Shown one piece after another: positions 34,111 through 36,920 of a stretch of DNA of 62,746 nt (position 1 is the first letter of the stretch; each line of letters begins with the position of its first letter). The position numbers were made by a program, and so were the translations under genes. The stretch comes from Gammaproteobacteria bacterium (lineage in GTDB: Bacteria > Pseudomonadota > Gammaproteobacteria > Steroidobacterales > JABDKV01): positions 1 to 62,746 of the forward strand of contig JAHEKH010000005.1 of the NCBI GenBank assembly GCA_024638445.1, read 5' to 3'. Under the pieces are notes generated by a model. It had not been told where the DNA came from and made no database searches. It saw nothing but the letters and a program-made list of their open reading frames with translations.

Positions 34111-34713
34111 TCAGGCGTGTTGCCGGATCACTCCAACGACGACGCCCTCGATCACCATCGGCTCGTTTTCGAGATCGACATGGATCGGTTCGAAGTCCGG
34201 GTTCTCCGGCAGCAGCCACACCTCGCGACCTCTTTGCTTGTACCGTTTCACCGTGACCTCGTCTTCGAGACGCGCCACGATGATCTGCCGGTTACGCACC
34301 TCCGGCGTGCGATGCACCGCCACCAGGTCGCCGTCGTAAATGCCGGCATCGCGCATGCTCATGCCGTGCACCTGCAGCAGGTAATGCGGTTTCTGACTGA
34401 ACAGCTCCGGATCGAGCCGGAAATGCGTTTCGACGTGCTGCTCGGCCAGCATCGGCTGCCCCGCCGCGACCCGGCCGACCACCGGGATACCCGTGCCCGA
34501 CTCGTCACAGATCCGGATACCCCGCGAGACCCCCGGGATCAGCTCGATCGCGCCCTTGCGCTGCAGCGCCCGCAGGTGTTCCTCGGCCGCGTTGGCGGAG
34601 CGGAACCCCAGTTCGGCGGCGATCTCCGCACGCGTCGGCGGCATCCCGGTCTCATCGATAGACCGCTGAATTAATTCAAGAATTTCAGCCTGGCGAGCGG
34701 TAAGTTCCTGCAT
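34111..34713 (-). CDS. lexA: LexA repressor
   Basis: LexA represses SOS genes and cleaves itself when RecA is activated. From ATG 34711-34713 the protein has 200 residues ([15 protein letters not shown]). The winged-helix DNA-binding domain is at 1-65 and the S24-type latent protease domain is C-terminal. With this start the cleavage bond Ala84-Gly85 (RVAAGQ), the nucleophile Ser119 (GMSM) and the base Lys156 (TVKRY) fall exactly on the E. coli numbers. That supports it over the ATG four codons upstream. A purine-rich ribosome site (GGATGGG) precedes it. It heads the lexA-imuA-imuB-dnaE2 operon and is likely autoregulated through the boxes just upstream. Confidence 0.97.
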
Positions 34714-34725
34714 TTTCCCATCCAT

Positions 34726-34815: not shown

Positions 34816-34848
34816 AAAAAAACGTGGCGAACGCAAAGCGTTCGCCAC
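34816..34848 (-). terminator. Strong minus-strand terminator with no assigned gene
   Basis: GTGGCGAACGC (34824-34834) pairs perfectly with GCGTTCGCCAC (34838-34848) around AAA. The A run at 34816-34822 gives seven T on the minus strand. No gene ends here on that strand, since the next plus-side feature is a non-coding structured element. Either it ends an unannotated small RNA or it insulates the lexA promoter from upstream transcription. Confidence 0.75.
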
Positions 34849-34864
34849 TCCGGCCCTCTTCAAC

Positions 34865-35042
34865 AATCCCCACCCTCGCAGCGCCATGCGGTGGGGAGGT
34901 GGCCTGTCCGGCGTCGTGGCCGGCCATCGCGCAGCAGGACGCGAAGCAGGCCGGCCCCGATCCTCAGCAGGCCAGGGATGGCCTGCTGAGGTTTAGGCGG
35001 ACGGGCCACCTCCCCGCCGGATGGCGCTCTTAATCCCCACCC
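34865..35042. repeat. Structured MITE/REPIN-like element with 11-bp direct repeats at its ends
   Basis: AATCCCCACCC occurs at 34865-34875 and again at 35032-35042. Inside, a ~32-bp imperfect inverted repeat (34879-34910 with 34998-35029) encloses two smaller hairpins. CCTCAGCAGGCC (34962-34973) pairs perfectly with GGCCTGCTGAGG (34980-34991), and GGCCGGCC occurs at 34918-34925 and 34949-34956. The whole could fold as a branched RNA or cruciform. The direct repeats look like target duplications, but only one copy is in this window. It fills most of the 440-base gap between lexA and the next gene. Small open frames inside it are not convincing. Confidence 0.6.
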
Positions 35043-35180: not shown

Positions 35181-36920
35181 ATGACGCACCACTCGGGTGT
35201 CCTGACCGATAGTCTTGCGTGGCCGCAGTCTTTTGCGGCCGACGAACCGTTGCTCAATCTTCCCCTGAGCACACTCGAACACAATCGCGATGCCGTGATC
35301 CTGATGGCACCGGTATCCGGTCATGCCGACCCCTCCATCGTTTACGTCAACGAAGCGTTTGAAGATCTCACTGGCTACACCCGCGCCATGGCGCTGGGGG
35401 CTTCACCGAGACTGCTGATCGGTACCCGCGGCCAGTTCGGCTGGGTCGGCCGCCTGCGCCGGCGCATGCAACAGCATCTCGCTTTTCGCGAACGCTGCAT
35501 GCTCCGCTGCGCCAGCGAAGAAGCGCTGGCCGTCATGCTCGAAGCCCACCCCCTGTCGGGCGCGTCCGGCAAGGTCGTCTACTGGCTGGTGAAAATGCAC
35601 GACCTCGCCTCGGTCGTTAACGAACAGACAAAACAGCTGCAGCAGTCACTGCACCAGGCCACCCACGACGAGTTGACGGGCCTGATCAACCGCGCCGAGT
35701 TCGAGCGCCGGCTGGAAGGCGCGCTGGAGCACATCGCCGAAGAAGGCGGTGAACACGTGCTGTGTTATCTCGACCTCGACCAGTTCAAGGTTATCAACGA
35801 CACGTGCGGCCACGCCGCCGGTGACGAGCTGCTGCGCCAGCTCGGCGACATACTCCCCGGCTGTGTCCGCGAGTGCGACACGATTGCACGCCTGAGCGGC
35901 GATGAATTTGCCGTGTTGTTCGATGGCGCCAGCATGCCGCAGGCCCGGCTGCTGGCTAACCGGCTCCGCGACAGCATCGAGAAGTTCCGTTTCCCGTGGG
36001 TGAGCAAGGTGTTCAGCATCGGGGTCAGCATCGGGCTGGTCTCGGTCACCGACGCCAGCGAAAGTGTCGCAAGACTCCTGAGTGCGGCAGATACCGCGTG
36101 CTTTGCCGCCAAGGATCTCGGCCGCAACCGGATTTACGTTCACCACCACGAAGACGGCGAAATCGCCCGGCGCCACGGTGAAATGGAGTGGGTCACCCAG
36201 ATCCAGGCCGCGCTGGACCAGAACCGTCTCAAGCTGCACCTGCAGAGCATCCAGGGCCTGACCAATACCCGTCATGGCCATCATTACGAGGTGCTGCTGC
36301 GGATGGAATCCGAGGACGGTGCCCTGATCTCGCCCGAGTGTTTTCTGCCGGCTGCCGAGAACTACCATCTGTCGACCCGGCTCGATACCTGGGTCGTCGG
36401 CCGGGTATTCGACTACCTGGCAATGTCAGAAATCCGGGCCGAAGACGGCAACCTCTGCTGCATCAACCTGTCCGGTCATTCCATTACCGACGCCGGCTTC
36501 CTGCAGAACGTCGTGGCACAGTTGCGCCGCTCGCCCGCGGCCGCCGAATCGATCTGCTTTGAGATCACCGAGACGGCGGTCATTGCCAATATTGGTCTCG
36601 CCACGCATTTCATCCGCTCGCTGAAAGAACTCGGCTGCCGCTTTGCGCTGGATGATTTCGGCAGCGGGCTGTCGAGCTTTGCCTACCTCAAGACCCTGCC
36701 GGTCGATTTCCTCAAGATCGACGGGATGTTCGTCAAAAACATGATGCGTGACCCCATCGACCTGGCCTTTGTTCGCTCGATTAACGAGATCGGCCACGTC
36801 ATGGGCAAAAAGACCGTGGCGGAATTTGTCGAAGACGAAGAGACCCTGGTCGCGTTGCGCGAGATGGGGGTCGACTATGCCCAGGGCTTCCATATCTCCA
36901 GGCCGTCACCCCTGATCTGA
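35181..36920 (+). CDS. PAS-GGDEF-EAL cyclic-di-GMP enzyme
   Basis: This 579-residue cytoplasmic protein has a PAS domain (about 30-135), GGDEF (about 165-325) and EAL (about 340-575). The GGDEF active-site loop reads SGDEF rather than GGDEF, while the inhibitory site RxxD (RECD) upstream is intact. In the EAL domain, EVL replaces EAL but the catalytic Glu is kept. NLSG, ITETA, DDFGSG, LKIDG and YAQGF are all present, so phosphodiesterase activity is plausible. The cyclase half may be weak or serve as a GTP sensor; that is inference. No membrane segment is seen. A GST gene follows on the same strand. Confidence 0.9.
   Translation: MTHHSGVLTDSLAWPQSFAADEPLLNLPLSTLEHNRDAVILMAPVSGHADPSIVYVNEAFEDLTGYTRAMALGASPRLLIGTRGQFGWVGRLRRRMQQHLAFRERCMLRCASEEALAVMLEAHPLSGASGKVVYWLVKMHDLASVVNEQTKQLQQSLHQATHDELTGLINRAEFERRLEGALEHIAEEGGEHVLCYLDLDQFKVINDTCGHAAGDELLRQLGDILPGCVRECDTIARLSGDEFAVLFDGASMPQARLLANRLRDSIEKFRFPWVSKVFSIGVSIGLVSVTDASESVARLLSAADTACFAAKDLGRNRIYVHHHEDGEIARRHGEMEWVTQIQAALDQNRLKLHLQSIQGLTNTRHGHHYEVLLRMESEDGALISPECFLPAAENYHLSTRLDTWVVGRVFDYLAMSEIRAEDGNLCCINLSGHSITDAGFLQNVVAQLRRSPAAAESICFEITETAVIANIGLATHFIRSLKELGCRFALDDFGSGLSSFAYLKTLPVDFLKIDGMFVKNMMRDPIDLAFVRSINEIGHVMGKKTVAEFVEDEETLVALREMGVDYAQGFHISRPSPLI

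Follow-up and report, generated by a model that had tools for sequence, protein, structure and literature searches.

The intergenic stretch between lexA and a PAS-GGDEF-EAL gene in the analyzed window (the whole stretch of gammaproteobacterial DNA under study, 62,746 nt) carries a structured element that is related to the TwoAYGGAY RNA family, strand-specific, dispersed and variably present between related species, with GGA in its hairpin loops and with basal arms specific to the lineage or even to the single copy. We consider it probable that this element represents a divergent TwoAYGGAY relative that became a dispersed multi-copy repeat and that, if transcribed, is predicted to form a CsrA-binding module.

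Fold and conserved junction of the element

A preliminary description made from the sequence alone had highlighted a strongly folded stretch of 178 bp at this position, and the folding proved to be real. On the + strand, the minimum free energy of the window copy is -129.6 kcal/mol compared with -82.8 (sd 4.6) for shuffled sequences (z -10.2); the - strand also beats its shuffles, less strongly (z -6.0). All features named in that description are present, with minor corrections in length: the 11-base direct repeats are found at both ends, the inverted repeat given as ~32 bp comprises 31 nt with 90% complementarity (34880-34910/34998-35028), the perfect inner hairpin given as 12 bp extends to 13 bp (34962-34974/34979-34991), and the sequence pair listed there forms the hairpin P2. 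The natural limits of the folded structure leave both direct repeats outside (Table 1). Within the window, no other GGA hairpin stood out above shuffles.

Table 1. Parts of the element in the window and neighboring features.
Feature	Position	Strand	Remarks
Whole structured element: basal stem P1 and three-way junction with hairpins P2 and P3	34880-35028	+	Fold; match of covariance model R2 at 34908-35000
P1 5' arm	34880-34912	+	Outer part of lineage-specific sequence; inner 34908-34912 within the model
P1 3' arm	34996-35028	+	Fold and inverted repeat
P2 hairpin	34913-34961	+	Invariant GTCGT...CCGAT closes the covarying stem; GGCCGGCC pair here
P2 loop CAGGACG	34935-34941	+	GGA at 34937-34939
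P3 hairpin, loop CAGGGATG	34962-34991	+	GGA at 34976-34978; all Watson-Crick in the window copy
Junction TTTA	34992-34995	+	Conserved, unpaired, before the closing GC of P1
Left 11-bp direct repeat AATCCCCACCC	34865-34875	+	Within the tandem unit of contig C83
Right 11-bp direct repeat AATCCCCACCC	35032-35042	+	Not general in the family
lexA	34111-34725	-	Transcription directed away from the element
PAS-GGDEF-EAL gene	35181-36920	+	Start 152 nt 3' of the element
Separate perfect 11-bp hairpin GTGGCGAACGCTTTGCGTTCGCCAC then GTTTTTTTAG	34824-34848	-	Intrinsic-terminator-like; dispersed small palindrome

In the element, the + strand forms a conserved three-way junction, closed by the long basal stem P1. 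Two-sided changes were apparent at 14 pairs in the five starting sequences already. They extended to 22 of 31 pairs in a set of 19 sequences, with 85.8% of all cells being paired compared with 25-37% when slid, and to 26 of 31 pairs in 100 distinct copies (covariation score 0.430 versus 0.04-0.07 slid, for an alignment fitted to the model). The conserved sequence of the junction is composed of GCGTCGT, CCGAT, and TTTAGC. Hairpin P3 alternates between Watson-Crick pairs, as in the window copy, and tandem G-A mismatches, as found in many relatives. The preliminary description had left the choice between a mobile element and a structured RNA, and had named a lack of covariation among homologues as an outcome speaking against it; the structure covaries strongly, which upholds the second reading in part, in the sense of an RNA-type element.

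The element was also considered as an intrinsic terminator. This was rejected, since no T-run follows it on either strand and the terminator-like hairpin to its left is a separate feature, situated directly ahead of the lexA promoter region. The small palindrome of this hairpin also occurs on contigs C83 and C122, on the latter twice and with a compensated change.

Distribution, relation to TwoAYGGAY and GGA loops

A BLAST search of the region against related genomes matched the junction in three of them (G001, G003, and G004) and did not match the arms; the window copy shares 82% identity over 87 nt with a copy in G004 (E 1e-13). A first covariance model (R1), built from five sequences, detected the element in other genera as well; G004 gave 29 matches, including a few partial ones. 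Of 296 genomes from the order of the window, 45, distributed over 14 of 68 genera, were matched by a second model (R2), built from 19 sequences; the copy counts of this order-wide search are lower bounds. Carriers hold from 1 to 46 copies, the numbers being 46 in G131, 43 in G119, and 18 each in G099 and G070. The single-contig genome G087 holds 21. Woeseiaceae MAGs and a Thiogranum MAG are among the named carriers. Outside the order, just three genomes were matched in a class sample of 274, and at least two of these matches (L394 and L396) follow the same plan with a long basal stem of their own. A phage origin was discarded, the exact pattern being present in four viral contigs and a model match in none.

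Further copies in the genome of the window itself (G000), proposed as a check in the preliminary description, were found in partial form, with a single complete copy detected. Contig C83 of this genome (L009, 9535-9849) hosts three tandem units of 117 bp between a GFA-like gene and aroQ, upstream of aroQ. The first two match 34823-34936 of the window, which covers the small palindrome and the left arm and reaches into the beginning of the junction, while the third matches 34823-34903 and ends in the left arm; the right half is missing from all three.

The Rfam model of TwoAYGGAY (RF01731) aligns to whole elements of G004, outer stem included, and scores 44.6 and 43.1 on two of these copies at a gathering threshold of 43 bits. 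Throughout 20 genomes, 16 of 16 matches of RF01731 coincide with elements, two of them above the gathering score. RF01731 did not report the window copy even at E 5; this copy is therefore a relative and, under Rfam's rule, a non-member. Its placement near TwoAYGGAY rests on a chain of homology through the G004 copies and is to be taken as probable at this level. RF01731 is part of clan CL00106 (Csr/Rsm), which also holds RsmW, the latter giving a sub-threshold match to the window.

The passages on TwoAYGGAY in Weinberg 2010 (PMC2864571) treat the family as a probable RNA that is probably not cis-regulatory, and those in the RMfam study of Gardner (PMC4333381) predict CsrA binding and describe a tandem G-A in one stem together with a poorly conserved outer stem. 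The elements found here share the long outer stem, the two-hairpin junction and the GGA terminal loops with TwoAYGGAY, and the tandem G-A is matched by P3 of many relatives. In contrast, the window copy lies below detection, the loops are relaxed to A(N)GGAY, and the element forms a dispersed repeat of 1-46 copies with copy-specific compensated arms, a property not mentioned for TwoAYGGAY in the passages of these sources. In the open-access papers searched, we found neither a description of TwoAYGGAY as a multi-copy dispersed repeat nor an experimental test of the proposed CsrA binding.

Loops of the form CA(N)GGAYG are present in P2 of 89 and in P3 of 94 out of 99 distinct copies, in both cases inside covarying stems. 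The CsrA consensus determined by SELEX, RUACARGGAUGU, has its GGA placed in a hairpin loop, and a CsrA dimer bridges sites 10-63 nt apart (PMC7652899). On sequence grounds, the CA(N)GGAYG loops are the consensus of the CsrA/RsmA recognition element. The window loops, AGGAC and AGGGAU, fit A(N)GGAY and do not fit the strict AYGGAY; the GGA-to-GGA spacing of this copy is within the range bridged by the dimer. The csrA gene was found in most carriers tested. It was not found in three genomes belonging to the window's genus (the window's own, G001, and G002), and neither was lysC, the neighbor of csrA in G003. A missing or unassembled region is therefore more plausible than a lost csrA, and the absence from these three assemblies is likely to be of this kind. 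The small RNAs CsrB/C and RsmX/Y/Z/W resemble the element by GGA in hairpin loops and by at least two sites per RNA; the element differs by only two sites, a rigid three-way junction and many copies, and an sRNA promoter or terminator was not identified for it. For the many copies residing between convergent genes, no promoter or terminator belonging to the element itself was evident either. At one locus (L252), an element copy is followed, about 450 nt further downstream, by a c-di-GMP-I riboswitch (RF01051, 72.8 bits, 1185-1270).

Dispersal, basal arms and alternative readings

Copies are mostly intergenic. For 55 of them, the gene context was derived from simple ORF calls, placing 29 between convergent, 20 between co-directional, and 6 between divergent genes. 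Inverted pairs with the 5' sides facing each other occur at L123, L136, L162, and L092 as well as in G087 (1085053-1085498). Some copies have an orthologue in another species, the flanks showing 80-90% identity. The two genes on either side of locus C28 almost touch in G119, but in G131 they are separated by about 200 bp that include the element with its two arms. The contrast recurs at C109b and C143, where G131 has an element and G119 has none, with an arm-like remnant left at C109b. These three loci represent pairs of occupied and unoccupied sites, arising by gain or loss, and so provide the empty sites in relatives that the preliminary description had suggested looking for. In G070 (L280-L318), some 16 almost identical copies, products of a recent amplification, form part of a larger composite repeat that also includes small hairpins to their left.

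Of the mobile-element reading offered in the preliminary description, the dispersal and the presence or absence of copies at given loci in related species have thus been confirmed, but the details of a MITE or REPIN have not. The direct repeats had been read there as target duplications tied to the ends of the element. An 11-nt match between the window flanks is reached in 1 of 2000 shuffles, and the repeats therefore exceed chance locally. Across 107 copies, however, such duplications are not the rule and the ends do not generally carry repeats, the mean longest flank match being 6.24 nt versus 5.97 nt in a mismatched control; there is only a weak tail excess of flank repeats of at least 9 nt (9/107 versus 26/1270 mismatched pairs, p 0.0009). 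The Y1 transposase/RAYT (PF01797) that mobilizes REPINs was not found in G119, G131, G023, G036, and G167, which include genomes with up to 46 copies; the window's own genome gave one PF01797 match. Mobilization by RAYT was rejected for the copy-rich genomes without a PF01797 match, and RAYT is unlikely as the spreading machinery.

MITEs such as NEMIS, ERIC, and BOX are short, non-coding, structured and dispersed, as is the element, which in contrast to them has no terminal inverted repeat common to its lineages and no consistent target duplication. With REP/REPIN sequences it shares the intergenic position near gene 3' ends, often convergent, and the occasional inverted pairs, whereas its size of about 150 nt with a three-way junction, the missing GTAG head, the usually single occurrence and the failure to find RAYT in several copy-rich genomes set it apart. 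CGTC-tagged REPs (PMC3733652) likewise have a hairpin starting with CGTC and no dedicated transposase, but are built from 8-9 bp stems with 4-5 nt loops and a CCA-type tail, and the CGTC of the element is largely paired in the junction.

The sequence of P1 is entirely different between genera. In G087, G131 and the f7 genus, copies follow a loose arm consensus that varies from copy to copy, with near-perfect complementarity being held over about 20-30 bp. An orthologous pair (G131 L305/G119 L343) has kept 35 of 36 pairs, several of them changed on both sides. Two other orthologous copies (L281, 1501-1595, and L286, 1046-1122) have wholly different yet self-complementary arms, which suggests that gene conversion replaced them or that insertion took place repeatedly at a single site. 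The locus-specific arms prompted us to consider that the element inserts into the loops of hairpins already present, or that a flank is copied to give the opposite arm. Two observations led us to set this aside: the arms of a given genome mostly follow one loose consensus, from which they depart through compensated changes, and the unoccupied site C28 contains neither arm. The remnant at unoccupied C109b, resembling the outer right arm, nevertheless leaves it some room.

Over the outer 20 arm positions, compared ungapped in 89 copies, we counted 1601 Watson-Crick, 82 G-U, 21 A-C, and 76 other cells. The G-U to A-C ratio of 82:21 contrasts with 1.2:1 expected from composition (42 copies versus 5; p about 1e-7, a value that is indicative because the copies are related). 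Selection for folding thus acts on the + strand. Structured single-stranded DNA would show an equal asymmetry, so the asymmetry alone is no proof of RNA.

This leads to the strongest competitor of the RNA reading, which we rate as clearly less probable while giving it some weight: a miniature mobile DNA element, whose single-stranded fold would be recognized by a transposase or recombinase in the manner of REP/IS200 ends or integron attC sites. In that case, proteins would contact the GGA loops on the DNA, and a role as RNA would be incidental. The dispersed copies, the near-identical amplification in G070, the loci at which G131 but not G119 has a copy and the inverted pairs would all be in line with it, and the strand asymmetry and the tandem G-A fit single-stranded DNA as well. 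The five genomes without a detected Y1 transposase and the lack of a general target-site duplication argue against it, as do the match of the loops to the CsrA consensus and the location of the closest Rfam family in the Csr/Rsm clan.

A functionless dispersed palindrome, its arms being held complementary through quasipalindrome correction at replication and its copies being spread by ectopic recombination, appears improbable. It would account for the very high rate of compensated changes in P1, e.g., in the orthologous pair of G131 and G119, and for the whole-arm replacement between L281 and L286. Pure palindrome correction is nevertheless disfavored by the excess of G-U over A-C, because correction at the DNA level alone should treat both strands alike, and the non-palindromic loops and the GCGTCGT/CCGAT/TTTAGC sequences are kept across genera. 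A locus-specific cis-acting RNA controlling the downstream GGDEF/EAL gene or lexA is very unlikely: its location upstream of the c-di-GMP gene on the sense strand would suit this role, but few copies lie between divergent and more than half between convergent genes, and the window flanks show no match to the copy loci of G001 and G003.

Predicted role and implications

Returning to the favored reading of a TwoAYGGAY-related RNA, we infer CsrA binding and an RNA role of the element from its loops, fold and family relations. Transcripts of the element, if produced by read-through or in the form of a small RNA, would clamp one CsrA/RsmA dimer between the two GGA loops, which are 36 nt apart in the window copy, while the long P1 stem would stabilize the RNA. 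In this form, it may act as a CsrA-binding module, either as a sponge or as a tether in an untranslated region. More tentatively, and as a possibility we ourselves hold to be doubtful, a CsrA-binding RNA fold might have turned into a self-spreading repeat, dozens of copies of which, each with a private and fast co-evolving basal stem, might wire or buffer the CsrA network across the order.

TwoAYGGAY has stood in the catalogues since 2010 with no function assigned to it, and a later motif study proposed CsrA binding. The up to 46 copies per genome, together with clear orthologues and unoccupied sites, provide natural replicates for testing this predicted binding. The copy-specific arms with their strand-asymmetric compensation represent a clean case of RNA-type (or ssDNA-type) selection acting on a repeat. 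Beyond this, the lineage invites one to ask how an RNA fold with a predicted protein-binding role could come to spread as a repeat.
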